In this document: positions 1 to 64,000 of the stretch, piece by piece | Position numbering within the stretch: the stretch's first letter is position 1 | Layout: every line of letters begins with the position of its first letter | Assembly (NCBI GenBank): GCA_903813345.2 | Contig: CAIIXF020000003.1 | Location: 7,527,815 to 7,591,814, forward strand | DNA: 64,000 bases | Reading direction: 5' to 3' | Source: Owenia fusiformis | Taxonomy: Eukaryota > Annelida > Polychaeta > Sabellida > Oweniidae | Position numbers and translations under genes: made by a program | The notes under the pieces: generated by a model | Database searches by the model: none | The model's input: the letters and a program-made list of their open reading frames with translations, nothing else | What the model was told of the DNA's origin: nothing

Positions 1-287
1 ATCGCTACATTGTAGCAATTTCACTGAGATATGGGCCCTGAAAATCATGTAATTTTAGCAAAAAATGAAGAAATAACCTGCAATTTTGACGGAATTTCAG
101 AGGGCTTTCTTTCATTCCAGACCCTCCATGGGCCTCTTATGACCATTCTTATACTCACACAATGGTTGAAAGTGATTTCAAATCATTGTTTGCCCTACGC
201 AGAACGAAAAAAATCGATTCTGTTCTCAAATTCTGCTAGAATATTGGTCTCTGGCCAACTAGCAGACAATTTTAGGCCTCATATTAA

Positions 288-756
288 GGTATGAGTACCG
301 TAATCCAACACCAAATTCGAAAATTCATAACAATACTTTGCACATATGGCGTTCGTGACCAACTATAAAACGCTTATCCCCCATAGTGTTATATATCAAA
401 ATGTACCTGTTCATATAGGGGTTCGATTGATCTACATCAAATTATAGGGAGTCAGGTTACTTTTTGAGATATCAGCGTCCATTTATTGTGACTCGCGTTT
501 GCTACGACTTCCTCAATTCTGATATGATGGGCAAACGCGTAGTAAACATGCTCCCGTCGGAACTATTTTTGACCTACATCGCTATTTACGTAATTCAAAT
601 GAAAGTGGAACTCCTCCTCTTTATTTTGATACCAAATAGTGGCATACTAGGTACCCTAGAAGCCAACTATGGCGTTATTTAGAACAATACCACGAGTTTT
701 TAAATGGACTATATAGGGGTCATACCTTTTGGCGGATGGATATGGAACCTCATACC
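288..756. mobile_element. piggyBac-like MITE, copy 1
   Basis: A 469-bp insertion is present in this satellite unit and absent from neighbouring short units. TTAA flanks both sides (284-287 and 757-760), while the empty unit has a single TTAA. The ends are inverted repeats: GGTATGAG at the start, CTCATACC at the end, with an imperfect 19-bp match (about 13 of 19). TTAA duplication is the hallmark of the piggyBac superfamily. There is no transposase frame, so it is non-autonomous. Assignment to piggyBac rests on the TTAA duplication alone. Confidence 0.8.
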
Positions 757-3700
757 TTAATGTGTTATGACATCACACTGATTTTTGTCTCTGCAACTTT
801 TTTTGGCAGAAAATATCATTTCTAGTTCAAAAATGCATAAAAACGTCGGAAATGGCTGAATATGTGAAAAATTTATCCATTTAGGCTAGAAAGGGTTAAT
901 TTGCCCTACCCCAAATACGTCTGAATATGCTAGTCTAACTTTGCCATTGTGACGTCACAAATCTAACCTGACTATCTCTGAGTTTATTGAAGAAAATGAT
1001 ACGTCTGACAAACAGCTTTCATTCCCTATATGGCACACCTTCTACTAAGAGTTGCATCATTGACTAAATCTAAGACAAAGGCCCTGTGTCCCGAGGATTT
1101 TGACTGAAATTTGGCCATTTTCGCCCAATTCTAACTAAATTGCAGTTTCCCTCACACCTGTATTTTGAAATAAATATTGCTACAATGTAGCAATTTAAAA
1201 ATCACACATGCTTACTGTTTCTGTCGACCTGACACGTGTATCTAGCCTGTAAAAATGAAAAATCGCTACATTGTAGCAATTTCACTGAGATATGGGCCCT
1301 GAAAATCATGTAATTTTAGCAAAAAATGAAGAAATAACCTGCAATTTTGACGGAATTTCAGAGGGCTTTCTTTCATTCCAGACCCTCCATGGGCCTCTTA
1401 TGACCATTCTTATACTCACACAATGGTTGAAAGTGATTTCAAATCATTGTTTGCCCTACGCAGAACGAAAAAAATCGATTCTGTTCTCAAATTCTGCTAG
1501 AATATTGGTCTCTGGCCAACTAGCAGACAATTTTAGGCCTCATATTAATGTGTTATGACATCACACTGATTTTTGTCTCTGCAACTTTTTTTGGCAGAAA
1601 ATATCATTTCTAGTTCAAAAATGCATAAAAACGTCGGAAATGGCTGAATATGTGAAAAATTTATCCATTTAGGCTAGAAAGGGTTAATTTGCCCTACCCC
1701 AAATACGTCTGAATATGCTAGTCTAACTTTGCCATTGTGACGTCACAAATCTAACCTGACTATCTCTGAGTTTATTGAAGAAAATGATACGTCTGACAAA
1801 CAGCTTTCATTCCCTATATGGCACACCTTCTACTAAGAGTTGCATCATTGACTAAATCTAAGACAAAGGCCCTGTGTCCCGAGGATTTTGACTGAAATTT
1901 GGCCATTTTCGCCCAATTCTAACTAAATTGCAGTTTCCCTCACACCTGTATTTTGAAATAAATATTGCTACAATGTAGCAATTTAAAAATCACACATGCT
2001 TACTGTTTCTGTCGACCTGACACGTGTATCTAGCCTGTAAAAATGAAAAATCGCTACATTGTAGCAATTTCACTGAGATATGGGCCCTGAAAATCATGTA
2101 ATTTTAGCAAAAAATGAAGAAATAACCTGCAATTTTGACGGAATTTCAGAGGGCTTTCTTTCATTCCAGACCCTCCATGGGCCTCTTATGACCATTCTTA
2201 TACTCACACAATGGTTGAAAGTGATTTCAAATCATTGTTTGCCCTACGCAGAACGAAAAAATCGATTCTGTTCTCAAATTCTGCTAGAATATTGGTCTCT
2301 GGCCAACTAGCAGACAATTTTAGGCCTCATATTAATGTGTTATGACATCACACTGATTTTTGTCTCTGCAACTTTTTTTGGCAGAAAATATCATTTCTAG
2401 TTCAAAAATGCAGAAAAACGTCGGAAATGGCTGAATATGTGAAAAATTTATCCATTTAGGCTAGAAAGGGTTAATTTGCCCTACCCCAAATACGTCTGAA
2501 TATGCTAGTCTAACTTTGCCATTGTGACGTCACAAATCTAACCTGACTATCTCTGAGTTTATTGAAGAAAATGATACGTCTGACAAACAGCTTTCATTCC
2601 CTATATGGCACACCTTCTACTAAGAGTTGCATCATTGACTAAATCTAAGACAAAGGCCCTGTGTCCCGAGGATTTTGACTGAAATTTGGCCATTTTCGCC
2701 CAATTCTAACTAAATTGCAGTTTCCCTCACACCTGTATTTTGAAATAAATATTGCTACAATGTAGCAATTTAAAAATCACACATGCTTACTGTTTCTGTC
2801 GACCTGACACGTGTATCTAGCCTGTAAAAATGAAAAATCGCTACATTGTAGCAATTTCACTGAGATATGGGCCCTGAAAATCATGTAATTTTAGCAAAAA
2901 ATGAAGAAATAACCTGCAATTTTGACGGAATTTCAGAGGGCTTTCTTTCATTCCAGACCCTCCATGGGCCTCTTATGACCATTCTTATACTCACACAATG
3001 GTTGAAAGTGATTTCAAATCATTGTTTGCCCTACGCAGAACGAAAAAAATCGATTCTGTTCTCAAATTCTGCTAGAATATTGGTCTCTGGCCAACTAGCA
3101 GACAATTTTAGGCCTCATATTAATGTGTTATGACATCACACTGATTTTTGTCTCTGCAACTTTTTTTGGCAGAAAATATCATTTCTAGTTCAAAAATGCA
3201 TAAAAACGTCGGAAATGGCTGAATATGTGAAAAATTTATCCATTTAGGCTAGAAAGGGTTAATTTGCCCTACCCCAAATACGTCTGAATATGCTAGTCTA
3301 ACTTTGCCATTGTGACGTCACAAATCTAACCTGACTATCTCTGAGTTTATTGAAGAAAATGATACGTCTGACAAACAGCTTTCATTCCCTATATGGCACA
3401 CCTTCTACTAAGAGTTGCATCATTGACTAAATCTAAGACAAAGGCCCTGTGTCCCGAGGATTTTGACTGAAATTTGGCCATTTTCGCCCAATTCTAACTA
3501 AATTGCAGTTTCCCTCACACCTGTATTTTGAAATAAATATTGCTACAATGTAGCAATTTAAAAATCACACATGCTTACTGTTTCTGTCGACCTGACACGT
3601 GTATCTAGCCTGTAAAAATGAAAAATCGCTACATTGTAGCAATTTCACTGAGATATGGGCCCTGAAAATCATGTAATTTTAGCAAAAAATGAAGAAATAA

Positions 3701-3910
3701 CCTGCAATTTTGACGGAATTTCAGAGGGCTTTCTTTCATTCCAGACCCTCCATGGGCCTCTTATGACCATTCTTATACTCACACAATGGTTGAAAGTGAT
3801 TTCAAATCATTGTTTGCCCTACGCAGAACGAAAAAATCGATTCTGTTCTCAAATTCTGCTAGAATATTGGTCTCTGGCCAACTAGCAGACAATTTTAGGC
3901 CTCATATTAA

Positions 3911-4379
3911 GGTATGAGTACCGTAATCCAACACCAAATTCGAAAATTCATAACAATACTTTGCACATATGGCGTTCGTGACCAACTATAAAACGCTTAT
4001 CCCCCATAGTGTTATATATCAAAATGTACCTGTTCATATAGGGGTTCGATTGATCTACATCAAATTATAGGGAGTCAGGTTACTTTTTGAGATATCAGCG
4101 TCCATTTATTGTGACTCGCGTTTGCTACCACTTCCTCAATTCTGATATGATGGGCAAACGCGTAGTAAACATGCTCCCGTCGGAACTATTTTTGACCTAC
4201 ATCGCTATTTACGTAATTCAAATGAAAGTTGAACTCCTCCTCTTTATTTTGATACCAAATAGTGGCATACTAGGTACCCTAGAAGCCAACTATGGCGTTA
4301 TTTAGAACAATACCACGACTTTTTAAATGGACTATATAGGGGTCATACCTTTTGGCGGATGGATATGGAACCTCATACC
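3911..4379. mobile_element. piggyBac-like MITE, copy 2
   Basis: Second copy of the 469-bp element, flanked by TTAA at 3907-3910 and 4380-4383, at exactly the same position in its satellite unit as copy 1. It shares several single-base differences from copy 1 with copy 3. The copies therefore arose by amplification of a unit that already carried the insertion, not by independent insertions. Confidence 0.8.
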
Positions 4380-7300
4380 TTAATGTGTTATGACATCACA
4401 CTGATTTTTGTCTCTGCAACTTTTTTTGGCAGAAAATATCATTTCTAGTTCAAAAATGCATAAAAACGTCGGAAATGGCTGAATATGTGAAAAATTTATC
4501 CATTTAGGCTAGAAAGGGTTAATTTGCCCTACCCCAAATACGTCTGAATATGCTAGTCTAACTTTGCCATTGTGACGTCACAAATCTAACCTGACTATCT
4601 CTGAGTTTATTGAAGAAAATGATACGTCTGACAAACAGCTTTCATTCCCTATATGGCACACCTTCTACTAAGAGTTGCATCATTGACTAAATCTAAGACA
4701 AAGGCCCTGTGTCCCGAGGATTTTGACTGAAATTTGGCCATTTTCGCCCAATTCTAACTAAATTGCAGTTTCCCTCACACCTGTATTTTGAAATAAATAT
4801 TGCTACAATGTAGCAATTTAAAAATCACACATGCTTACTGTTTCTGTCGACCTGACACGTGTATCTAGCCTGTAAAAATGAAAAATCGCTACATTGTAGC
4901 AATTTCACTGAGATATGGGCCCTGAAAATCATGTAATTTTAGCAAAAAATGAAGAAATAACCTGCAATTTTGACGGAATTTCAGAGGGCTTTCTTTCATT
5001 CCAGACCCTCCATGGGCCTCTTATGACCATTCTTATACTCACACAATGGTTGAAAGTGATTTCAAATCATTGTTTGCCCTACGCAGAACGAAAAAAAATC
5101 GATTCTGTTCTCAAATTCTGCTAGAATATTGGTCTCTGGCCAACTAGCAGACAATTTTAGGCCTCATATTAATGTGTTATGACATCACACTGATTTTTGT
5201 CTCTGCAACTTTTTTTGGCAGAAAATATCATTTCTAGTTCAAAAATGCATAAAAACGTCGGAAATGGCTGAATATGTGAAAAATTTATCCATTTAGGCTA
5301 GAAAGGGTTAATTTGCCCTACCCCAAATACGTCTGAATATGCTAGTCTAACTTTGCCATTGTGACGTCACAAATCTAACCTGACTATCTCTGAGTTTATT
5401 GAAGAAAATGATACGTCTGACAAACAGCTTTCATTCCCTATATGGCACACCTTCTACTAAGAGTTGCATCATTGACTAAATCTAAGACAAAGGCCCTGTG
5501 TCCCGAGGATTTTGACTGAAATTTGGCCATTTTCGCCCAATTCTAACTAAATTGCAGTTTCCCTCACACCTGTATTTTGAAATAAATATTGCTACAATGT
5601 AGCAATTTAAAAATCACACATGCTTACTGTTTCTGTCGACCTGACACGTGTATCTAGCCTGTAAAAATGAAAAATCGCTACATTGTAGCAATTTCACTGA
5701 GATATGGGCCCTGAAAATCATGTAATTTTAGCAAAAAATGAAGAAATAACCTGCAATTTTGACGGAATTTCAGAGGGCTTTCTTTCATTCCAGACCCTCC
5801 ATGGGCCTCTTATGACCATTCTTATACTCACACAATGGTTGAAAGTGATTTCAAATCATTGTTTGCCCTACGCAGAACGAAAAAAATCGATTCTGTTCTC
5901 AAATTCTGCTAGAATATTGGTCTCTGGCCAACTAGCAGACAATTTTAGGCCTCATATTAATGTGTTATGACATCACACTGATTTTTGTCTCTGCAACTTT
6001 TTTTGGCAGAAAATATCATTTCTAGTTCAAAAATGCAGAAAAAACGTCGGAAATGGCTGAATATGTGAAAAATTTATCCATTTAGGCTAGAAAGGGTTAA
6101 TTTGCCCTACCCCAAATACGTCTGAATATGCTAGTCTAACTTTGCCATTGTGACGTCACAAATCTAACCTGACTATCTCTGAGTTTATTGAAGAAAATGA
6201 TACGTCTGACAAACAGCTTTCATTCCCTATATGGCACACCTTCTACTAAGAGTTGCATCATTGACTAAATCTAAGACAAAGGCCCTGTGTCCCGAGGATT
6301 TTGACTGAAATTTGGCCATTTTCGCCCAATTCTAACTAAATTGCAGTTTCCCTCACACCTGTATTTTGAAATAAATATTGCTACAATGTAGCAATTTAAA
6401 AATCACACATGCTTACTGTTTCTGTCGACCTGACACGTGTATCTAGCCTGTAAAAATGAAAAATCGCTACATTGTAGCAATTTCACTGAGATATGGGCCC
6501 TGAAAATCATGTAATTTTAGCAAAAAATGAAGAAATAACCTGCAATTTTGACGGAATTTCAGAGGGCTTTCTTTCATTCCAGACCCTCCATGGGCCTCTT
6601 ATGACCATTCTTATACTCACACAATGGTTGAAAGTGATTTCAAATCATTGTTTGCCCTACGCAGAACGAAAAAAATCGATTCTGTTCTCAAATTCTGCTA
6701 GAATATTGGTCTCTGGCCAACTAGCAGACAATTTTAGGCCTCATATTAATGTGTTATGACATCACACTGATTTTTGTCTCTGCAACTTTTTTTGGCAGAA
6801 AATATCATTTCTAGTTCAAAAATGCATAAAAACGTCGGAAATGGCTGAATATGTGAAAAATTTATCCATTTAGGCTAGAAAGGGTTAATTTGCCCTACCC
6901 CAAATACGTCTGAATATGCTAGTCTAACTTTGCCATTGTGACGTCACAAATCTAACCTGACTATCTCTGAGTTTATTGAAGAAAATGATACGTCTGACAA
7001 ACAGCTTTCATTCCCTATATGGCACACCTTCTACTAAGAGTTGCATCATTGACTAAATCTAAGACAAAGGCCCTGTGTCCCGAGGATTTTGACTGAAATT
7101 TGGCCATTTTCGCCCAATTCTAACTAAATTGCAGTTTCCCTCACACCTGTATTTTGAAATAAATATTGCTACAATGTAGCAATTTAAAAATCACACATGC
7201 TTACTGTTTCTGTCGACCTGACACGTGTATCTAGCCTGTAAAAATGAAAAATCGCTACATTGTAGCAATTTCACTGAGATATGGGCCCTGAAAATCATGT

Positions 7301-7536
7301 AATTTTAGCAAAAAATGAAGAAATAACCTGCAATTTTGACGGAATTTCAGAGGGCTTTCTTTCATTCCAGACCCTCCATGGGCCTCTTATGACCATTCTT
7401 ATACTCACACAATGGTTGAAAGTGATTTCAAATCATTGTTTGCCCTACGCAGAACGAAAAAATCGATTCTGTTCTCAAATTCTGCTAGAATATTGGTCTC
7501 TGGCCAACTAGCAGACAATTTTAGGCCTCATATTAA

Positions 7537-8005
7537 GGTATGAGTACCGTAATCCAACACCAAATTCGAAAATTCATAACAATACTTTGCACATATGGCG
7601 TTCGTGACCAACTATAAAACGCTTATCCCCCATAGTGTTATATATCAAAATGTACCTGTTCATATAGGGGTTCGATTGATCTACATCAAATTATAGGGAG
7701 TCAGGTTACTTTTTGAGATATCAGCGTCCATTTATTGTGACTCGCGTTTGCTACCACTTCCTCAATTCTGATATGATGGGCAAACGCGTAGTAAACATGC
7801 TCCCGTCGGAACTATTTTTGACCTACATCGCTATTTACGTAATTCAAATGAAAGTTGAACTCCTCCTCTTTATTTTGATACCAAATAGTGGCATACTAGG
7901 TACCCTAGAAGCCAACTATGGCGTTATTTAGAACAATACCACGACTTTTTAAATGGACTATATAGGGGTCATACCTTTTGGCGGATGGATATGGAACCTC
8001 ATACC
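7537..8005. mobile_element. piggyBac-like MITE, copy 3, at the array edge
   Basis: Third copy, 469 bp, with TTAA on its left (7533-7536). On its right it is followed by TTTAGCATGG, not by the satellite. The array stops at the terminal inverted repeat, and unique PNP intron sequence begins within a few bases. Confidence 0.8.
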
Positions 8006-8089
8006 TTTAGCATGGAGTTATTTTGGCAGTGTATTATTTAAAACTTAATATGACGTCATGAACCTTAATTATTTCACTGTATTATTTAG

Positions 8090-8292
8090 GAATGAGCACT
8101 GTCCATGAAGTTATCATGGCAAGACATTGTGGAATGCGGGCATTTGGCATGTCACTCGTTACAAACAAATGCGTTATGGACTATGACGAAGATAGGAAAG
8201 CCAATCATGAAGACGTGCTAGAAACTAGCAAACTTCGTGGAGAGGACATGCAGAAACTTGTCACCAAAATGATTGAAAAAATTGAAGTTTAA
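8090..8292 (+). CDS. PNP: Purine nucleoside phosphorylase, last exon (gene partial, 5' exons outside window)
   Basis: This exon encodes the C-terminal 66 residues of a trimeric purine nucleoside phosphorylase, the cytosolic enzyme that phosphorolyses inosine and guanosine to base plus ribose-1-phosphate. It starts after an AG acceptor at 8088-8089 and supplies the last two bases of a Gly codon, giving G-MSTVHEVI. It ends at a TAA (8290-8292). Family residues are visible: Met of GMST, Asn of VTNK and His of KANHED, corresponding to human Met219, Asn243 and His257 in the nucleoside pocket. The C-terminus (MIEKIEV) matches the family's usual end. The upstream exons are not in the window, so the whole 8-kb satellite array to the left must lie in the preceding intron, unless this is an isolated exon copy. 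I cannot tell whether the rest of the gene is intact. Confidence 0.88.
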
Positions 8293-17400: not shown

Positions 17401-20400
17401 TTTTATCATCATCAATTTGCTTGAAATTGTACATGCCATTAGGTGAAAAGGCGAACAATAATGTCTAAGGGTATAGGGAAATATTTTGTTAAATGTTAAA
17501 ATTAAATGAAATAAAGTCAGAATTTTTTTTCATATTGTACCTTGGATCTAAAACTATCAATCCATGACTTAAAGATGTCACTTCCAACTTTGTTCGCTTC
17601 CATTAAATCTCTGTAAGACTTTGTGCCAAAGTGACGAAGCCATGGAAAGATATCCAACTCCTGACCAAACCCTTGCGCCAAGTGTTGCTGTGCACGATGC
17701 ATCTTATCTACAGCGACGAAATCATCCTCTATGAAGTCCACATTTTCTCCAAGTATCTGTCATTTACAATAAAAATACTGAAAGTTCGTTAAAGAACTGG
17801 GTTAAATTCGGCTTGGACTATTGCATGGTTTCTCTGAACTATAAGAAAAATCCATTCTCATATGAATATTTTAATTTTCGAATTTTGTATTTTTTAAAAT
17901 ATCAATTATCGTAAATTGTCCCATATTCGGTTTTACTTATTGGGGGTAAACTATACGTTAAGGTTAAAAACGTCTTACCATAATCATACACATACTCTTT
18001 TTTATTTATTTTTATTTCTCTATTCAAACATTACAAGTACAATAATTAGAACAATTCAGATATTTTTCACATCACCTCCATTCATTCAGACATTTGCAAC
18101 AGTCATACTTTTAAGTACAGGTACATAATAAAACATATTTTTTTCAAATTGCGCCTCATACAAATTGGGATTCACTTCGTCGAACTCTTTTATAAAAATA
18201 TAGGACTTAATTGCAAGGGTAAATCTATTTGGTAAGATATTATTCTCATTAACTTGCCTTCCAAAAATCATGTCATGGGCATTTAAGTCGAAATCAACTT
18301 TAAATAAACGCTTTAAATTCCCTTTGATTGCTTTCAGAAATATTTGAATCCTTTTGCACTCCCAGAATTCGTGTTTTAACATCTCCAGAGGCACAATAAT
18401 TACATTTAGAATCTTTTTTAATGCCTATCTGCACTAAAAAGGCATTTGTAGTACAGATACCATGAAGTATTTTAAATTGAAGTTGTCGCGTTTTATTCTG
18501 TTTCGTACACATATAAGGCATCTTAAAATAATCGGTTCTGTTTAATTCACGATCATGTTTGTCTTTATATAACAGTTCCAAGAACTTGTTTCCATTTAAT
18601 ACTGTTTGAATTGATTTAACCGTTAAACTAGAAATTGTCACCTGTTTTCCACCAAGATTCAAATACATGAATTCTTCCTGTATGCTGGGTTCAAAGGTCG
18701 AATTTAAATCCGATTTCAATAAAAGTTTCCAATCATTCGGTATAGTCGATATGATTGAAAAATACTCAAGAAAGTTGATATTAATATTATACTTAGTTTT
18801 AAACCCATTGTACTGTACAAAATCCCATTTTCGTTAAGAAGGTCATTAATATAAATGGCTCCCTTTTCCATGACATGTTTGTACATCACCTCCTAATCAT
18901 TAATTAGGATTGATTTGTTATTCCAAATTATTTCACCTTTAACCTCTGAACTGGTTCTAGGCGGCGACATATTTCTTAATTGTGAATAGTTTCGAAGCAA
19001 ATTCATATAAAAGGTAGGAACATTGTGTGCCAGTGTTTTAATATCATAAGTACATTGCAACAAAAAACTCAGTCCTCCAAGACGCTTGAAATAAACTTGA
19101 GGAATAAGTGTGAGTAATATAAGAAAGGTTAAAATGATGCAATATTAAGGACAGTTTTAGTAATGAATAAGGTAATGTTGTTGACCCCCCTATCACACCA
19201 AACTAGTTCTTACCGTTCTTGCCAGTCCTACGAAAACGTCGTAAAACGGGCTCAATCTGGCTGTGGTCGGGAAATATGTCTAAAATAATTAGCTTCTTCG
19301 TTCATAAACAGTCTTCAATACGTCCATCTCATTCGCAGTTCGTTCAGGTCGCACCACGTCGGTGTGCAACGTTGTACAACGCGTCCCTTAGTCTAGAAGG
19401 TCATCATGACCTGATTACAGAACGGTATGGTCGCCATCGAATTTTGAATCGATTCAAAATTCTAAAATCACCTTCCCATCCGAGAACGTTCATGAAATAT
19501 CTAAGAGGTGAAACATCTAGGAGTGAAATGTGTAGGTGTGAAAACTCTAGTTGAGATGTCTAGGGGTGATATGTCTATCGGGTAAATGTCCAGGGGATGA
19601 AATGTCTAAGGAGTTTTGAAACAACTAGGGGTGAAATGTATAGGGCATAAAATGTTCAGGGAGAGAAATGTCTAAGGGGCAAAACATCTTTGGGTGAAAT
19701 GTTCTATGGGTGAAATGTCTAAGGGGTGAAACATCTAGGGGTGAAATGTCCATAGGGTGAAATGTCTACTATTGTCAAGGGGATGAAATGTCTTAGTTGT
19801 GAAACATCTAAGGGTGAAATATATAAGGGGTGAAATGTCCGAGAGGTCACCCCTGGACTTTTCATCCCTTAGACATTTCACCCCTCGAAATATCAGCCCT
19901 GAAACGTTATACCCCTAAGATGTTATACCCCGACACATTTCACATCCTGGACGCTTCACCGCCATATATATGAATATACATGCATAATATCAAAGGCTGC
20001 GTCATTAGAGAATTTTAATTCAATTAACATGAAAGTATTTAATTTCTTCTCCAAGTAACACTTAATTAATTGAGGGTGAAATGCCAAGAAGTAAGAGGTC
20101 TAAGGGGTGTTATATCTAGGGGTGAAATGTCTAGGAGTGAAACATCTAGGGGTGAAATGTCTATGGGGTAAAATCTCCAGGGGATGAAATGTCTAATGGG
20201 TGAAACATCTGGGGGTGAATTGTCTAAGGGCCAAACAACTAAGGGGTGAAATGTATAGGAGATGAAAAGTCTTGAAGTGAAATGTCCAAAAGGGAAAAGG
20301 TCTAGAAATATATATATGTACCAAAAAATCATTCAAAATCTTGCAGCTTTTCACCATTCTGAGCACTTTTCAAGTGATTTTGGGCCAAAGTTGTGAAATG

Positions 20401-23400: not shown

Positions 23401-24241
23401 ATGTTTCTTAGGATACAAATTTTGTAAATAAGGACATTTAAATTGAAAATATAAAATCATTGACATTTTTTTTTTATTTGAAAACTTATCATATAATTGT
23501 TAATTTTACCTCTTGGAGATGAAAGGGTTAATTTTCTCAATTTTGTACGAGCAAACATCCAAAAAGCGACCAGATCCTTAAAGCTGACACTCTCACCTTT
23601 GCAATGGTGTATTGAAACCTGAGGACTAACAGCAGCCCTACTTTGGATTGAAATATGCCAACCGTTAAAGTGATTAAATGATCAAGGTTAATTAAACTTA
23701 CCAACTTCAAAATGTATTTTGTGATACAGCGATCTAAAGGGGTGATTGGATTGAACGCTTCACCATTGTGTGACAAAAACTCTGTAATGCATTCTTCAAT
23801 CGATTCAATAGATATATCAACCATACGATCAGATGCTTCTCCATACTGTTTGAGTCCCTGGACAGCAAGTTTTCGCATTAGCTTATGCGATTCGTTGAAG
23901 TCTTGAAAGGCAACACCTTTGTCGCCACCTGGAATGGCAAAAAGGAATCGCCAAGATTTTGGTCGTCCTGCAAAATCATCTGACCTAGTCATCATGATCG
24001 TTTCATAATCGCTACAAACAACAACTTCTTCTCTGAAAAGTTGGAGTTTGAAGACATTTCCGAATTCCTTCGCCCATTCTTGAATCTGAATATATGGTAG
24101 GTCTTTGGAGAGTTGTAGCGCATTTCCTATTAAAGGAATGCCTTTTGGTCCAGGTATGTCTATCTTCCGCCATCTGAATAGGAATGCAATTAGAAAAAAT
24201 ATTCCTACAACCAAAGACCCTGTGATAAATACAACTGCCAT
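14428..24241 (-). CDS. Cytochrome P450 (clan 2, CYP1/17-like), intact gene A, six exons
   Basis: Exons on the minus strand: 24241-23702, 17756-17541, 16784-16655, 16278-16013, 15867-15746, 14647-14428, joined by GT/AG sites into 497 codons plus stop. The product is a microsomal heme monooxygenase-type protein. An N-terminal membrane anchor (residues ~3-22) is followed by a Pro-rich hinge (DIPGPKGIP). ExxR (ENFR), PxRF (KPDRF) and the heme loop FPFGIGKRSCPG are all present. The start is MAVVFITG, conserved in copies B and C. Upstream in-frame Met codons are not conserved. Oddities: the I-helix motif, split across exons 3 and 4, reads AGTVTT with Val in place of the acid, and the helix-C WxxxR reads HKLMR. 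DTSLGQYKIPKD and HDPHYF are CYP1/17-like, but the exact family is uncertain. Intron 1 (5.9 kb) holds LINE pieces, satellites and repeats. Confidence 0.88.
15060..15480. repeat. Degenerate AGGTCA/TGACCTT-rich tract in intron 5 of gene A
   Basis: Several TGACCTT and AAGGTCA hexamers cluster here (for example near 15190, 15234, 15260 and 15430). The sequence resembles a decayed version of the minisatellite at 39260-40320 in gene C. Confidence 0.4.
16326..16355. repeat. Solo CAGGGTG-type transposon end in intron 3 of gene A
   Basis: TACAGGGTGTTCG followed by AAAAAACGC resembles the TA-flanked mariner-type termini at 29577 and 58352. No partner end is seen within ~300 bp, so this is probably a truncated element. 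Confidence 0.35.
18086..19095 (-). pseudogene. L1-type LINE ORF2 C-terminus, 3' fragment
   Basis: Conceptual translation gives a non-LTR retrotransposon ORF2 tail. A hydrophobic stretch around FKRLGGLSFLLQC comes first, then FLEYFSIISTIPNDWK, QFKILHGICTTNAFL with IGIKKDSKCNYC (zinc-finger-like), and HEFWECKRI. The frame is broken at least twice (a TAG near 18896 and a frameshift near 18380). It continues the fragment at 21187-21556 and lies in intron 1 of P450 gene A. Confidence 0.7.
19188..19476. repeat. Dispersed repeat, inverted cognate at 54788-54962
   Basis: About 175 bp (19303-19476), including GACCTGATTACAGAACGG, matches 54788-54962 in reverse orientation. The preceding sequence from 19188 (CTATCACACCAAACTAG) matches 53464-53485. 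Both halves therefore belong to one repeat family whose larger copy spans 53460-54990. The 111-codon plus-strand frame across it is not supported as a gene. Confidence 0.6.
19480..20310. repeat. Degenerate GGGGTGAAATGTCTA minisatellite with an orientation switch
   Basis: Short units of ~13-20 bp built on GGTGAAATGTCTAGGGG run from 19480 to ~19850. They switch to the reverse complement (CATTTCACCCCT) from ~19850 to ~19950. After ~130 bp of unrelated AT-rich sequence they resume in the first orientation at 20085-20310. Units are irregular in length and sequence. Confidence 0.8.
21187..21556 (-). pseudogene. L1-type LINE ORF2 fragment, 5'-truncated
   Basis: The minus-strand frame encodes YDTNANNTDNFERKLNML, then LTFYGKVLIIKSQAVSKLIY. 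After a frameshift it continues as a typical ORF2 segment (FIWGG, GEKIKRNTLI, DFEDGGLRM). It stops abruptly near 21190, where ~2.1 kb of unrelated satellite sequence separates it from its continuation at 19095. The 5' end near 21556 fits the usual 5' truncation of LINE insertions. Confidence 0.7.
22730..23110. repeat. Decayed nuclear-receptor-half-site minisatellite in intron 1 of gene A
   Basis: The reverse complement resembles the ~135-bp units of the array at 39260-40320 (AGTCAGATTTGAA, GTAGATGATTTTGAAA, AAGGTCATTGAAGGTCA), with many substitutions. About two to three units are recognisable. Confidence 0.55.
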
Positions 24242-24762
24242 CGTTGAACTACTTATAAGTGCCAAAAAATATGACAAAGATCGCATAAAAACAGCTCCGT
24301 TATCTATCATCTGGGTCAACGTGTAACGATTATACTCACGGGGACTATCCAGGCCCAGTTATGCTTCTCGAAATCGCGAACAAGTACCCGCTGAAAATGC
24401 GAGCATACCTGTATATCCGATTCTTTGTACAATCTGGGAAAATGGACCAAATTGGTGATAATACATTTATAAGGCTCTGTAAAACGACATCAATACCTTT
24501 AAAATATGTATATTTACCTAAAATTGATATGAAATATGATCGATTCTTCTTTGCTGTTATGGAAAACGGGCGTACATACTCCAAAGTGTCCATGCCATAG
24601 AAGGCTGATTTGGTTGAAATATCAAAGCATAACGTCAAATATGAAAATTAGTATACTATCAACCAGAAATCGACGTTATCAATCAAATATATTATAAATA
24701 TCTTTATTTCAGTTCCAGAGTCCATATGTAAGATGAAATCAAATTATCATTTTGAAATGCAC
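24242..24762 (-). promoter_or_regulatory. Upstream region of P450 gene A, conserved with gene C
   Basis: About 520 bp directly upstream of gene A aligns closely with 43877-44820 upstream of gene C, which has a ~300-bp extra stretch. It must include the promoter and 5' UTR, but I cannot place a start site. No convincing TATA box stands out. Confidence 0.45.
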
Positions 24763-34020: not shown

Positions 34021-35533
34021 TCAATGCAAAATGTTTAGAAGTATTTTTGACATTGTGATTTAACATTATGTTATTGATATAATGGGATAAACCATGAATC
34101 CAGTACGTTATAAATTACCCTTTATTTGCATGTTTGTCAAATGTGTGACCAGAAATAAACGTTATACTAAGTCAAACATTAAAACTAGTGATTAAATGCC
34201 CAAGGTTTATAAAACTTACCAAATTCAAAGCGTATTTTGTGATACACCGATCCAGGGGGGTAACTGGATTGAACGCTTCACCATTGTGTGACAAAAACTC
34301 TGAGATGCATTCTGTTATCGACTCCATAGATAAATCAACGATACGATTAGATGCTTCTCCATACTGTTTGAGTCCTTGAACAGCAAGTTTTCGCATTAGC
34401 TTCTGCGATTCGTTGAAATCTTGAAAGGCGATACCTTTATCGCCACCAGGAATTACAAAAGTAAATCGCCAAGATTTTGGTCGTCCTACAAAATCATCTG
34501 ACTTTGTCATCATGATCGTTTCATAATCGCTACAAACGACAACTTCTTCTCTGAAAAGTTGGAGTTTGAAGACACTTCCGAATTCCTTCGCCCACTTTTG
34601 AATCTGAATATATGGTATATCTTTGGAGAGTTGTAGCGCATTTCCTAATAAGGGAATGCCTTTTGGTCCAGGTATGTCTACATTCCGCCGTCTGAATAGG
34701 AATGCAATTAGAAAAAATATTCCTACAACCAATGAGCCTGTGATTAGTACAACTGCCATCTTGGAACTAGCTATTTAGTATGAGAAGGAAGAAGAAACGT
34801 ATATGATAAAAAATTATATCTCACGTTTTACTAGTCTGTCTCGGTCAGAGTGCATCGGAAACGATCATACTTCTTATAACATTGTATAACACTACTAATG
34901 CGCGTATGACATTTAAAGTTAACACAATCTGGCCTAATATGCTAATCTGACTGTATAAATCTTGCTTTAACTTTATTTATTGTTAAATTCAACATAAAGT
35001 ACATGGAATTCACGCCTCGTATGTTTTTTTAATTGGACAGATAGTGAAACTTTATTGCCTTTCTAGCAATAATTCAAGCTACCTGTACGAAGATCTACAG
35101 GCTCATTTCGGATAAGTCATCTTATACGTTTTATGTTATTGTGTCATAATAACTTTTAATTAACCTTGGCAAAAAGTATTGAAAAATCTAACCCGGCGAG
35201 AGGCTGCCATATTAGATTTTCAAGAACGAGGCTGATTTGACTTGATTACTAACTCAAGTTTTATTAAGAATGGTAACTAACTTTTATATGCCAAATTTCA
35301 TCCTTCTGAGCTCCATTTTCTCAAACCTTTCTTAAGAACCGTTTAATGAAGGTAAAATGGGTAAAATGAAACAACCTTCAATCCATTTTGTTCCTAACAA
35401 TGCAATTTTTCCCTAAAATGGAGTAACATCTTTCATTTTTCACATATAGACCACATTTTCGATTTTCACTTAAAAGCATCTTTGACAAGTCTCGCGCATG
35501 CGCGATCGAGGTCTGGAAATTAAGAAAGCTACG

Positions 35534-49300: not shown

Positions 49301-50998
49301 GTGAATAGACTGGGGTCCCCGCTTTGAACCAAGCTGTGTTAAGCTTTCCCACGCTTTGAGTCAAGCTTTGTTGAGCTTTGTTACGGTTTGTTAAGCTTTG
49401 ATACGCTCTCGGCGCTTCAATCAATTCGTAACAGAGCGCCCAAAATTTGTAAACAGTTTAACATTTTTTGGCGCTCTTGCCGAATATCCCGCTTTACTCC
49501 GAACTTTTCTACGACCTATTACGATCCCGACGCTTTAATCAAGCTTTGTTACGCTTTGGTGCCGCTTTACAATCCGCTTTAAAGCGCCATCAAAGCGCCG
49601 TTGGTGCGAACGCTTAAACAGTTTAAATTTTTTAGCGCTCTTGCCGAATATCCCGCTTTACTCCCGAGCTTTTCTACGACCTTTTACGACCCCGACGCTT
49701 TAATTAAGCTTTGTTACGCTTTGGTGCCGCTTTACAAGCCGCTTTAAAGCGCCATCAAAGCGCCGTTGGTGTGAACGTACCATGACTTAGCTTTAATGGG
49801 AGATGGTGGCCTGGCTATAAATTATGGACCTGAAACATTCTTAAGTAGCACCCCTTCAAAAGTAATTGAAACAATTATACATAGACAATTTTTATCTTTT
49901 CTTTTGGGAAAAATAACTTGATTTATATAATTCAGAGTGTTTTGCCAAAAGAAAGTACTTTTAATCAGTTAACCTGACCTTCCTGATAATTTGTTACCAA
50001 AAATTGCTGATGACACGTCACTTTATAACTCCGGAGAAAAGTGGGAATTAATTGATATGCACCAGCCTATTCAAAATGACTTTGATAATTTTGCTCTATG
50101 GGCATACCTGGAAATGACTTTTGAAAGTACAAAAAGCACTGATTTGATTTTCACGACAACCAGAAACTTAACTATTGAACCAACTCCTTTACATCTAGGA
50201 GATATTATAGTCATTAGCATTAATAAGGGCTAATTTCGGACCAACACTTGAACTTAATGATCATATTGGTCAACTTATCACAATAGTAATTTCCTTGATT
50301 CGACCTTTACATGTAGATACGCGGTGCGATCGAATCATTTTGGTAACTGACCCGAGCTTGACAATTTGCTAAGAAATTGCAATACAATTTATTCTTTAAC
50401 TTAAAATCTAGTCCAAATTTTACATAATGAAGCACTCCATACAATTGTTATTCCATTCGGATTATTGTAGGACATTAGTTTGAACCCAGTTCTGACCAAA
50501 TACGAAGTTACTGGAAATGGCACAGACGTCCAAGTTCTAAATTAAATCTTCAACTCTACATGACCCTTTTCATTTTTCAAAGACAATTGAGTATTACTTT
50601 CTATCAAAGCGATCCTTTAAGTGATAATAACAGAAGATAAAATTCATATTCAAGTCTATTGATGGTACAGACTGCATATCGTTGTACTCGTACATCACAA
50701 AAACTCATTGTTATCTGAAAAACACATAGTTAGCTGAAAAACACACAATTATCTAAAAAACACACACTTAGTTATCTGAAAAACACACAGTTATCTGAAA
50801 AACACAAAGTTATCTGAAAGGGCCTGTGTGTCATACACAGGCCATTTGAAAGAACACTTATTTACCTTCCATAAAAAACCTTCGAAACCATTTTGCACAT
50901 TTCGTAGAGCACTCCACTTCATCCTCTGTCACATTAATTTCCTCGATGCCTGACTGACTGGTACTTTCAGTCATTGGTATATCCTTGTTTTCATTCAT
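46331..50998 (-). CDS. TauE/SafE-family membrane transporter T1, three exons
   Basis: Exons on the minus strand: 50998-50866 (133 bp), 47861-47634 (228 bp), 47283-46331 (953 bp). They join in phase 1 at GT/AG sites to give 437 aa. TauE/SafE (sulfite exporter) family proteins move sulfite, sulfonates or related organic anions across membranes in bacteria. The animal substrate is not established. Exon 1 encodes a hydrophilic N-terminus starting MNENKDIP. Exon 2 has a membrane segment (FVGPAISATVVYFFW). Exon 3 has the paired family motifs SVGGGVVAFPV and ALAGTGLDIVCF, about eight membrane segments in all, and a cytosolic tail ending NKAFEVI. The start Met is supported by a matching exon in T2. 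Intron 1 (3 kb) holds foldback repeats and a LINE fragment. Confidence 0.85.
47985..49781. mobile_element. Cluster of foldback elements with GTTCACACCAACGGCG ends
   Basis: At least two nested or adjacent units share inverted ends. One is a 170-bp unit at 48111-48280 (AGCTACGTTCACACCAACGG and its complement). The other is a 1425-bp unit at 48357-49781 (GGTACGTTCACACCAACGG and its complement) with arms over 150 bp. The interior is made of degenerate GCTTTGNTNNGC-like repeats in both orientations. A short conserved-looking core with a TATA motif and an ATG frame lies at 48940-49108. All of this is in intron 1 of T1. The superfamily is not determined. Confidence 0.75.
48940..49108 (+). pseudogene. 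TATA box and 37-codon start of a probable transposon gene
   Basis: TATATAAA at 48940-48947 is followed 48 bp later by an ATG (48995) and a 37-codon frame beginning MAEQRDPEIPDGPEHD and ending ENFQA at a stop in the repeat (49106-49108). The acidic, low-hydrophobicity peptide stands out from the surrounding GCTTTG repeats. It looks like the promoter and first exon of the element's lost transposase gene. I do not recognise the family. Confidence 0.4.
49985..50400 (+). pseudogene. LINE reverse-transcriptase fragment (CR1/Jockey-like)
   Basis: The plus-strand frame encodes IADDTSLY, a variant of the RT catalytic [F/Y]xDD motif. NDFDNFALWAYLEMTFESTK follows at the spacing usual for RT palm and thumb, then HLGDI and, after a frameshift, FGPTLELNDHIGQL. 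The domain is short and broken, so this is a dead fragment. It is in intron 1 of T1. Confidence 0.65.
50711..50820. repeat. Minisatellite of TTATCTGAAAAACACACAG units
   Basis: About six units of 17-24 bp, adjacent to the donor of T1 exon 1. Confidence 0.8.
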
Positions 50999-52339: not shown

Positions 52340-55300
52340 CTAGACATTTCGACATTTTGTTCTGTCGATGTAGTATTTTTCTTGAAACCCCTTGTTCAAA
52401 TGTTCATTCTTTACCGAGGGGTCAGCGTTGTCTGCAACTGTGAACACTTTTTGAGTTCGTACACCACTTTGTACACTACCATTATCCACCATCGTGATTT
52501 TTCCTTCCTCTATTTGTTCAACTTGTTTCAAAAGTTTGGCTCCAGCCAGTGTCAGCAGAAAGAAAATGAGGCCTCCGCCCACAACGATTCCCACAGCTAG
52601 ACCAATCAGATCAGGGGTCAAAGGTCGTATGACTACGAATGAGCCAATCAGCGCTGCAGTAGTGATGATGTAAACAAATGAAGCCAAAACCAGGCGGTGT
52701 AGATAGCTACCTATAACAGATCCCATCGGTGCTCCAATGACAACGATTGGGATGCAAACTAACAAGTAATGAAATGCATCAGTTGAAGCATTGTATTGTA
52801 TTACTGATCTCCAATACGTAGCAAATGCAGTATTGATACCCATGAGTATAACTGATGTTGGAGTTGCCGTCTTTTCAGTTACACGGAACAGTAATGTCAT
52901 GACGCTGAAACTGACTATGTCCAAACCACTGCCGACAAGAGCAGTAAATATTCCTCCAACAAGTGCAGTCAAGAATAAAACAAAACCTTTCCATGTGTTC
53001 AAGTACGGAACAGTTAGAAATGTTTTTCTATTACGATATCGGTTCAGAAGAAACAATGCGAATGCAAATGCAAAACAGAATGCTGTAAACGTGAACTTTT
53101 TTCTTGGCGGAGACAGATGTTGATCGACAACCTCAAAACCAAAGATAGCGCCAAAAACACCCCCGATCGAGCAAATAATGATGCTGTTCCAATCCACTTG
53201 AATGCCCATGAAGTAGATGACGAAAGAGGCGGATGTCATTCCACAAAACTGAACCATTAGACTGAAGTCTCGTGCGATGTTTGGGGTCACGTTGACGACA
53301 AGCGTCATGACAGGGAACGCCACAACTCCCCCTCCAACGCTAGTCATCCCTGGAAATGTAAAAAGCAATTCACAAATAATTCATTTTTTGTAAAGCTGGC
53401 TGGAATTGTGACATCGAAACACCTATTTCGTTTCTCAGTATTTACCAAATAGTTCACCTAACCCTACTATCACACCAAACTAGATCTCACTACGTTTTCG
53501 AAAACGGGCTTAAACTGTGCACGAACGGATTTGACGTACTAAGAACCCACTAAGAACCGTTTGGGATCTGTTTACAAACTTCATGAAACTACTCAAACGA
53601 GTAGGTCCAGAACCTAGAGAATGCTCAAAATTTTCTGGTGATGGTCACGTTCTGCAATCAGAACGAGTGACAACGTACTTAAGACGACCTGGACGCACCG
53701 GGGACACACTACGAACGGAAGTGTCGTACTTTAATCCTACAAGGGACGTATTACGACGTTGTGTAGTCAGGCGTAAATTGCAGCTGTGAGTGAATACGGA
53801 AAACATCGCACTGAGTATTTCCGCAATCGGGAAAATAGGGGATTATATTAATCCGTTCTGCACGGATTAGGGACACGATGTTCACTATTTTAGAACGAGT
53901 TCAACCGTATGGAAATTTGGTGGATAATTCAGTAACATATTAGGGCGTAATGAGAACGAGGTACAACTAATTGTCAACTGGTTTAAACTGATTAAGAACG
54001 TTATCGAACTGCTTGGATACGAACGACAATTTGAGCCGATCTAAACTTTTAATACCAACGTACTGCAGACGGAATAAAGGAGAGGTTAAGCTAACGATGT
54101 TTTTCACAACGTAACCGTGAACGCAAAGTACAAAAATTAACAAAGGAATGTATCGAGCGCTCATAGTTTTATGCGCGCTTAGTCTACTTCAGATACTCTT
54201 TCAGCTTCATAGTTTCGGGTTTAGAACGGGAGATTTTGAAATTTGACGTTGGGTCAACGGGAACCATTTTACTCGTGTCTATTGAACACTATGCTGTCAA
54301 TTTTGATTTCGATGCACAGTTGAATTCTTGCTGAACACGATGATGTATGTCAAGCATGATTTAGCGCCAAAAATCATACGAAACGAGCTCGTTTAAAATA
54401 TGTATTAGAAAACCAGCTATAAAACCGCATCAATGACATACTATAGAATCATTACACGCTATGGTGTAGTCTAAACAAACACTGGATTTGAACGGCTATT
54501 TATATGAGAAAGCTACATGAATTTGTATATGGTCGAGTGATACGTACAGGTTCAGTTTCTATTATATATGCAAAGCTTAACCTCTCAAATGACGAGATGA
54601 ACGTATTAAAAACTGCTTATGAACGAATTAACAAAAATAGCTTTCACGCCAGAACAGTTGTCACTGCGTTTATCAAAACATTGCCGAATCGGTTTTAAAC
54701 TGTGTGCGAACTGAATGAACGTAGCTACAACGTTCTACGGTCTGTTTACGAACTTCATGGACTTTCCCGGACGGGAAATGTGATTTAGAATTTAGAATCG
54801 ATTCAAAATTCAATGGCGACCATACCGTTCTGTAATCAGGTCATGATGACCTTCTAGACTAAGGGACGCGTTATACGACGTTGCACACCGACGTGGTGCG
54901 ACCTGAACGAACTGCGAATGAGATGGACGTACTGAAGACTGTTTATGAACGAAGTAGCTAATTATTTTAGACAATTTTAATTTTCCGTTTGACAGGGATT
55001 GGAAACGCGTAGTGTATTTTCGAAAAACAGCTAGGTGAGTTTTTATTTGATACCCTGTGAATGTTTTGCGGTGTTACCTTATCTGGCAAAACGCTCATAC
55101 TTTTCCCAGTAGCTACAATAGGAGCATCAAATTGTTATGAATAAAAAGCTATACATTTAGTTTTCTAGAATGTGGGGCTGACCAAAGACATTTTTCAAAA
55201 TATTTCTGTTGTATAATCCAATATTATTGAAAAACTCGATTTTTATGTCAATTTGTAACAGCTAAATGTTTCCCCGATGTAGTGGGATCAGTATAATCGT

Positions 55301-62740: not shown

Positions 62741-63714
62741 TCATATCTCTTGAAAAGCTTTATTTGAAACTCCGTTCTGCATCGAGGAGGGAGCGTTGTC
62801 TGCAACTGAGAATATTTTATTAGTTATAACATTACTTTGTACGCTATCGCTATTTGTCATCGTTATATTTTCTTCTTGTTCCTCCACGTGCTTCAAAAGT
62901 TTGGCCCCAGCCAGTGTCAGCAGAAAGAAAATGAAGATTCCGGCCACAACGATTCCCACAGCTAGACCAATCAGATCTGGGGTCAAAGGTCGAATGACTA
63001 CGAATGAGCCAATCAGTGCTGCAGTAGTAATTATGTAGATCAATGCAGCCAACACCAAGCGGTGAAGATAGCTCCCGATAACAGATCCCATTGGTGCTCC
63101 GATGACAACGATTGGGACACAAATTAACAAATAATGAAATGCATCATTTGAAACATCGTTGTGTATTACTGCTCTCCAATACGTGGCAAATGCAGTATTG
63201 ATACCCATGAGTATAACAGATGTTGGAGTTGCCGTCTTTTCAGTAACGCGGAACAGTAATGTCATGACGCTGAAACTGACAATGTCCAATCCACTGCCGG
63301 CAAGAGCAGTAAACATTCCCCCAACAAGTGCGGCCAAGAATAAAACAAAACCTTTCCATTTGTTCAAGTACGGAACAGCTAGAAATGTTTTTCTATCACG
63401 ATATCGGTTTAGAAGAAACAATGCGAATGCAAATGCAAAACAAAATGCTGTAAACGTGAACTTTTTCTTTGGCGGAGTCATATGCTGGTCGACAACTTCA
63501 AAACCAAAGATAGCGCCAAAAACACCTCCGATCGAGCAAATGACGAGGCTGTACCAATCCACTTGAATGCCCATGAAGTAGATGACAAAGGAGGCGGCTG
63601 TCATTCCGCAAGACTGAACCATAAGACTGAAATCTCGGGCGATGTTTGGGGCGACGTCGAGGACAAGTGTCATAACGGGAAACGCTATAACTCCTCCACC
63701 AACGCTTGTCATAC
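62741..63714 (-). CDS. TauE/SafE-family membrane transporter T3, last exon (partial gene)
   Basis: This is the third paralogue's large exon: a phase-1 acceptor at 63715-63716, then two bases completing Gly and 323 codons to the stop. SVGGGVIAFPV and ALAGSGLDIVSF are present, with the conserved DFSLMVQSCGM and RPLTPDLIGLAVG blocks. The tail ends SNKAFQEI. By analogy with T1 and T2, two upstream exons with the N-terminus and first membrane segments should lie beyond the right edge. The frame is intact, and the tail resembles T1 more than T2. Confidence 0.87.
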
Positions 63715-63716
63715 CT

Positions 63717-64000
63717 GGAAATTACAATTAACAAGCTATTCACCATTTTGTTACACTGGGCGAAATGGGGTCCTTGAGACCTCTGTCTTTTGTCGGTATT
63801 AACAAAAAGATCACGCTGGATAGTACTACATTAGCCAATCAGAATGCTTTGGTTCTAGCAAAGACGTCCAGAAATTGTATCAAAGATTATCACATAGCTA
63901 TATCGTCAGTCTGTAGTTTTAATAGTAATTACATACTACCCCACACATAATTTCGTGTTAATTTCGTAGTAACACGAAAAATAGGTTGTAGTTTTTAAAT
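63717..64000 (-). other. Start of intron 2 of T3
   Basis: By gene structure this is the T3 intron. An inverted repeat around 63952-63978 (TTTCGTGTTA with TAACACGAAA) is the only structure noticed. Confidence 0.5.

Follow-up and report, generated by a model that had tools for sequence, protein, structure and literature searches.

A mobile composite of a MITE-like transposon and a 788-bp passenger probably underlies an irregular tandem array in Owenia fusiformis

The window analysed here, 64,000 nucleotides of the Owenia fusiformis genome (contig CAIIXF020000003.1; G000:C3:7527815-7591814), opens with the right-hand part of a tandem array in which a 469-bp insert, A, alternates with sets of a 788-bp repeat unit, B. 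A preliminary description had taken this array for a regular four-unit higher-order repeat marked by a transposon insertion. We think it likely instead that the array is a mobile composite, which expanded locally after insertion and from which A has repeatedly been lost without a seam. 

A and B probably form a family of composite elements

A carries perfect 12/12-bp terminal inverted repeats (TTAAGGTATGAG/CTCATACCTTAA, TTAA included), in keeping with its earlier identification as a transposon. Its longest open reading frame encodes 72 amino acids in 469 bp, and its 25-base left end has 488 exact matches genome-wide. Single copies are flanked by a 4-bp duplication that is exact in 7 of 14 cases and within one mismatch in 13 of 14 (control pairs, 33/182 exact); since eight of the 14 come from a single shared nested site and are therefore not independent cases, the weight lies on the duplications around arrays, given below. 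By these sequence features A is a MITE-like (miniature inverted-repeat transposable element), predicted non-autonomous DNA transposon with a TTAA-preferring 4-bp target duplication. TTAA makes up 6 of the 21 exact array duplications, the commonest site yet a minority, which sets A apart from both piggyBac and Kolobok elements on the TTAA criterion. piggyBac elements excise precisely and without scar at TTAA, and the apparently seamless excision of A, as judged from the junctions left by terminal A losses, resembles theirs. The GG at both termini of A agrees with the purine-purine (RR) terminus given as a Kolobok criterion in a passage of PMC6004289; in its RR terminus and TTAA preference A would thus resemble Kolobok, most of its duplications being other than TTAA.

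B, the passenger, is 788 bp of non-coding sequence with TTAA at each border. Allowing at most one mismatch, the genome contains 178 B-A, 177 A-B and 57 B-B junctions, the A-B count having used a pattern with one free base. A genome search for further arrays of the unit had been proposed in the preliminary description, and contigs 1-7 yielded 79 loci with exact A/B or near-exact B/B junctions among the matches listed. Placement used the exact A-B and B-A junctions together with the B-B junctions among those matches, one-mismatch junctions entering only the totals, so that coverage of contigs 1-7 is complete for the exact A-B and B-A junctions; right-end junctions alone had given 64 loci. By structure, 25 of these 79 are A-B-A, 10 A-B-A-B-A and 5 A-B-B-A; one locus has five B, and in two the number of B is about 20 or more. 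Another 29 show only one outer junction, and 7 are of other kinds. The 29 (15 A-B only, 14 B-A only) are a mixture of mutated junctions, truncation and loss. The second large array, at C5:17.32 Mb, consists as far as read (one end lies beyond) of sets of 1, 3, 2, 2, 2, 1, 2, 4, 3, 2 and 1 B units, and its 23 full B units comprise only 4 distinct sequences. At the loci read, A occupies the same junction in the same orientation, though B contains two other TTAA sites.

Arrays probably insert whole

We examined flanking 4-mers at 55 loci, 34 fetched as arrays and 21 as single A (two of these being A-B). Sixteen loci were dropped for lack of an intact A end on at least one side; among the arrays these were L025 and L030, which ran off the piece, L024, which lacks three bases of its first A, and L010, L026, L067, L068, L070 and L074, which are decayed or have no A. 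Both outer A ends are intact in the remaining 25 arrays, of which 21 have identical outer 4-mers and 4 have outer 4-mers that differ by one base. Where neither end was TTAA the outer duplication was exact in 15/15 arrays, as against 24/210 cross-locus control pairs, and the window array itself has TTTA on both sides. Irrespective of the outer duplication, the inner full-length A's that were scored had TTAA on both sides in 15/15. Divergence of A and of B is correlated across loci (Mantel r = 0.71; 0/5000 permutations as high; 32/36 loci, four without full-length A and B being dropped, with at most three copies per locus), which argues that A and B spread together. These data are best read as insertion of A-B-A (1.73 kb) and longer forms whole, probably mobilised by their outer A ends. 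Two A-B-B-A loci, L066 and L069, are each other's nearest relatives and lie in different places, indicating that A-B-B-A can itself move.

A has probably been lost cleanly from within arrays and from their ends

The B-B junction contains one TTAA and the B-A-B junction two, and a single TTAA at B-B is exactly what precise excision of A would leave. The B-B state is scattered on the tree and requires 8 changes (bootstrap 7-9), of which supported branches force no fewer than 4. Array ends are the most telling, in that the 4-mers beside a terminal A can differ. We viewed 12 of the 15 A-B-only loci: in eight the right end of B was present with A gone, and in four there was no B end. Excluding C2:25441276 (mutated B end) and C4:7377260 (left side unread) left six which, with L010 and L026, make eight A-B elements without a right A and with both flanks read, and these stop at the last base of B. 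The bases that follow B are the outer duplication itself in two elements (TTGA in L059/L084, TTAG in L095/L085), and the inner TTAA in two others despite a different outer site (TTGG in L057/L083, TTAG in L102/L094). In L101/L093 they are TTAT with an outer TTTT, which may be TTAA and TTTT in mosaic, and in L010 a TCT one base short of the outer TTCT; the remaining two, L026 and L096/L086, are treated below.

Losses from the left side were also found. L067 lacks its left A and keeps the outer ATAA, the same as on its right side. Among the 10 of 14 B-A-only loci viewed, the left A was absent with TTAA kept in two (C1:5185476 and C2:27036547), the others showing mutated junctions, a B-B junction, truncation or no B start. 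An exact pattern of the B end followed by a non-T base, blind to outer sites that start with T such as TTGA and TTAG, gave 0 matches; the corresponding pattern of a non-T site base before the B start, likewise blind to T-starting sites, gave two, L067 and one on C237. Terminal outcomes of this kind would be expected if two 4-base overhangs paired and mismatches were then repaired. Because several of the terminal 4-mers are non-identical, deletion through microhomology, which needs identical 4-mers, does not fit.

This last point bears on the alternative that survives best, namely that B-B junctions arose without any loss of A, either by tandem duplication through TTAA microhomology or by transposition through facing A ends that joined B ends. 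With TTAA on both sides of B either route gives the same junction, and transposition through reversed ends makes tandem duplications in maize, as parts of PMC3744419 describe. We nevertheless regard it as unlikely, since the clean terminal losses show that excision happens and several of them involve non-identical 4-mers that microhomology deletion could not have used.

Arrays probably grow in place

A diverged on average by 0.0019 within loci (29 loci) and by 0.0147 between loci; the corresponding means for B were 0.0035 (19 loci) and 0.0158. In a tree of B made from 96 units, with identical units of one locus merged to give 62 rows, 14 of the 17 loci with at least 2 distinct B rows formed a group of their own, as counted by eye on the tree drawing; L012, L025 and L066 are the exceptions. 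That B units mostly cluster by locus suggests that arrays grew in place. The first A was strictly nearest to its own array in 18 of 29 loci, with 8 ties.

An order of events in which B-B arrays came first and A was inserted later, separately, at B-B junctions would account for the TTAA on both sides of an in-array A, as at an ordinary insertion. We consider this very unlikely: within an array the A's are almost the same in sequence, across loci their variation follows that of B, their constant junction and orientation at the loci read disregard the two other TTAA sites in B, B-A junctions number 178 as against 57 B-B, and terminal losses of A are observed.

The full array is irregular

The full array spans 18.7 kb (G000:C3:7517128-7535819) and reads A BBB A BBB A BBBB A BBB A BBBB A BBBB A. 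Its left start falls, again exactly, on an A, and its final base is the final base of an A (A07). In the third set (BBBB) the second unit is truncated, and in the fourth (BBB) A and the first unit are fused by a deletion. There are no N's across the window and the two pieces fetched leftward. Markers reveal two block duplications within the array. On the left, the second unit of sets 1 and 2 is marked by 117T>A, and their third unit by 382A>G, 426T>A and a deletion at 42; the two sets form a three-unit repeat with a period of 2,834-2,835 bp. On the right, A06 and A07 are identical (409C) and both differ from A05 at three sites, so that the copied block was BBBB+A.

The earlier reading therefore stands in part. 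The insert does recur in what were counted as units 1, 5 and 9 (288-756, 3911-4379 and 7537-8005), and the last step in the window did duplicate a 3.62-kb block of four units plus insert, whereas the left part repeats in threes. The variant GCAGAAAA, offered as a second marker of register, is present near 2410 and 6034 as described; across the full array it occurs in units 8, 10, 13, 16 and 20 and keeps no common register, and in unit 20 the run of adenines after it is one base longer. Differences in adenine runs among B units could in part be assembly errors, the array being known here from the assembly alone. A, which had been used as a register marker, is not a passive or chance tag; it provides the repeat's mobile frame, and the array begins and ends with it.

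We consider it highly improbable that the array is a true satellite, regular in its four-unit higher-order repeat and marked a single time by a transposon; as a general description this reading is refuted. In its favour, both complete sets in the window keep register and A06 does not differ from A07, but the regularity is local: successive A's are separated by 3, 3, 4 (one truncated), 3 (one truncated), 4 and 4 B in this array and by 1-4 in the second large one. Moreover, A-B-A (25) and A-B-A-B-A (10) stand against only 5 A-B-B-A in the 79 loci among the matches listed, and 25/34 fetched arrays have intact outer A's with a 4-mer repeat at no more than one mismatch.

The primer-binding site of a long terminal repeat (LTR) retrotransposon starts with TGG. 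Least probable of all is a reading in which A would be the LTR of a short retrotransposon, and each array a row of tandem LTR elements with internal LTRs in common. Although A(BA)n with shared inner copies is the plan of such tandem elements (described in parts of PMC11899658) and a 4-bp duplication is compatible with it, A has GG...CC ends with a 12-bp inverted repeat including TTAA rather than TG...CA. By eye, neither a TGG within bases 1-30 of B nor a purine tract ahead of A was seen, and precise loss of A leaving one 4-mer is unexpected of an LTR.

Proposed route and points against it

In the mobile composite that we favour, two A's in the same orientation would frame B and the outermost A ends would serve as the ends of the whole unit, A-B-A and longer forms being inserted in one piece. 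Expansion would follow insertion, most simply through unequal exchange between direct repeats; transposition via the facing ends of neighbouring A's, known for maize Ac from parts of PMC3744419, may be another route of growth. A transposase acting in trans would remove A at some positions almost or wholly without scar, so that one 4-bp site stays and B is joined to B. Later block duplications would copy whatever A/B pattern was then current and so produce local three- and four-unit repeats, the last of them in the window being BBBB+A. We infer that the higher-order look of the window arose from loss of A and then block duplication. More tentatively, and with rather less than even confidence, we suggest a class of composite DNA transposons in which scarless excision of an internal MITE tolerates mismatched 4-base overhangs, with the inner site, the outer one or a mosaic as the outcome, and turns dispersed A-B-A elements of one family into new satellite arrays, whose higher-order pattern records excision.

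Several observations weigh against this account. That A was lost and not gained would follow from parsimony and from the terminal losses, both of them readings of present-day junctions. Among those losses, L026 and L096/L086 have TTAA after B with an outer site that is also TTAA and form an uninformative pair; the TTAT of L101/L093 could be a single-base mutation; and in the TTGA and TTAG cases A-B could alternatively have transposed by means of the A-like end of B (CCTCATA versus CCTCATACC). In L011, L015, L021 and L069 the left outer 4-mer is TTAA and the right one TTAT, TTAT, CTAA and ATAA, respectively, a side bias that is unexplained. In L027, L028 and L069 the first A is nearer to an A of another locus, a count to be taken together with the 8 ties. 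We sought an empty site in paralogous introns of the host gene, purine nucleoside phosphorylase, where the alignment starts only about 27-30 bp right of the array and leaves the left flank unaligned. No transposase with A-like ends was found beside 9 piggyBac and 5 THAP loci in a search that was not exhaustive, and a shortened THAP-domain frame about 0.95 kb left of the left end of the A-B array in L080 (G000:C8:3659800-3663300) is taken as a neighbour.

The search for ends allowed at most 2 mismatches in 14 bases together with an exact 4-bp duplication, and yielded one weak pair, in L079. At 4/9 piggyBac loci the candidate ends start with CTC or CCT (one also AAG), unlike A, and the 7-mers GGTATGA or TCATACC occur at 3/9, never as a correctly ordered pair. 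THAP proteins from 3/5 loci were scanned and have a DDE_Tnp_4 domain, in a scan whose models did not include Kolobok. L045 and L063, followed up as a long candidate with the left end of A, turned out to be A with an insert of about 0.9 kb.

Relation to known systems

The closest precedents that we have seen for MITE-carried tandem repeats, by analogy, are Xstir/Xmix and miDNA4 of Xenopus. As described in parts of PMC6004289 and PMC12628747, Xmix/Xstir (T2-MITE) repeats also travel and expand with a TTAA-targeting MITE; the Xstir repeats are thought there to derive from inside the MITE, whereas here a complete MITE recurs within the array and has seemingly been lost cleanly. The miDNA4 satellite-MITE of Xenopus tropicalis likewise joins a MITE to a satellite of variable copy number, but in the passages of PMC12628747 and PMC9659126 that describe it the satellite lies within one element, while here complete MITE copies stand between units. 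Tandem LTR-retrotransposons of plants, such as rice, are head-to-tail multimers with shared internal terminal repeats and are read as single insertions in parts of PMC11899658; here the place of the terminal repeat is taken by an inverted-repeat transposon of the DNA type, which appears able to leave precisely. In the reversed-ends transposition of maize Ac, as set out in parts of PMC3744419, two nearby transposons duplicate adjoining DNA, and only the geometry fits here. piggyBac shares with A its TTAA preference and apparently scarless excision, but many duplications of A are non-TTAA and its ends are unlike those at the nine local piggyBac loci. We know of no described case in which complete MITE copies inside an array leave cleanly. 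The relevant passages of PMC6004289, PMC12628747, PMC9659126 and PMC11899658 describe none, and no report on Owenia satellite DNA turned up in the open-licence literature, a result that does not extend to other literature or to reports worded differently.

That satellites can come from transposons is known, but the intermediates are seldom seen side by side. This one genome contains a series of single A, A-B-A, A-B-A-B-A, A-B-B-A and arrays of at least 20 units, with markers of the steps and an excision signature, and can serve as a natural test case for the passage from interspersed transposon to tandem array. It also suggests that a higher-order pattern can stem from transposon loss, besides block amplification.

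Features of the array and its surroundings

All features of the array in the window lie on the plus strand. The first is the right part of B unit 13 (1-283; unit positions 506-789), which extends left beyond the window, followed by the TTAA at 284-287 and A05 (288-756; ends GGTATGAG...CTCATACC), which differs at 3 sites from A06 and A07. B unit 14 (757-1544) starts with TTAA and is joined by a single TTAA, with no A between, to unit 15 (1545-2331), after which come unit 16 (2332-3119), with GCAGAAAA, and unit 17 (3120-3906). TTAA at 3907-3910 precedes A06 (3911-4379), the same in sequence as A07, and units 18 (4380-5168), 19 (5169-5956), 20 (5957-6745), again with GCAGAAAA, and 21 (6746-7532) follow. 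After TTAA at 7533-7536 the array stops at the last base of the terminal A07 (7537-8005), and TTTA at 8006-8009 forms the right half of the outer 4-bp target duplication, the left half lying at G000:C3:7517124-7517127. Directly preceded by TTAA, the three A's are spaced 3,623 and 3,626 bp from TTAA start to TTAA start, with four B of 787-789 bp between successive copies. Window B units are 99.6-99.9% identical to unit 18, used as the reference, which excludes chance as the source of the repetition.

B also contains two near-palindromes (ATTGCTACAATGTAGCAAT), a 21-bp inverted pair 63 bp apart (4799-4819 and 4883-4903). Its right end (for example 7526-7532) reads CCTCATA before TTAA and resembles the A end CCTCATACC, and B may once have had a transposon end of its own. 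A ribozyme or structured RNA, as in a retrozyme-like tandem element, was considered and set aside, positions 3700-5300 giving one chance-level Rfam match (E 0.86).

Among the single A's, 9 of the 20 fetched share the flanks aaaaattgtgctATAA before A and ATAAgcttcaa after it. A second cargo family of A was rejected in favour of A nested in another repeat: in L043, L047, L049, L052-L054, L058, L061 and L062, A always occupies the same ATAA position within a different dispersed repeat, and seems to spread as a passenger of that repeat. In L061/L064, A is part of a 960-bp tandem duplication within this other repeat.

The last coding exon of purine nucleoside phosphorylase (8090-8292, plus strand; PF01048 positions 174-233; left border, the splice acceptor, read by eye) starts 84 bp right of the array, and a second exon match lies to its left at C3:7510508. 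Because exon matches flank it on both sides, the array most likely sits in an intron of this gene, as the preliminary description had stated; one stretch of the family profile was not located between the two matches. Two more copies of the gene lie at G000:C3:7442596-7446980 and C3:6301514-6305170. Around the last exon, across some 257 bp, their identity to the window copy is 90% and 97%, and the array-side intron differs.

Elsewhere in the window there are two tandem sets of similar frames on the minus strand, in each of which one of three was scanned: cytochrome P450 N-terminal frames (23537-24358, 34172-34774 and 43319-43939), which make up a tandem gene family, and TauE/SafE-like membrane protein frames (46331-47308, 52340-53380 and 62741-63721). 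Other tandem repeats are 15-16-bp TGAAATGTCTAGGGG arrays (19493-20286), a 138/274-bp array (39309-40122) and a 165-bp doublet (49450-49777).

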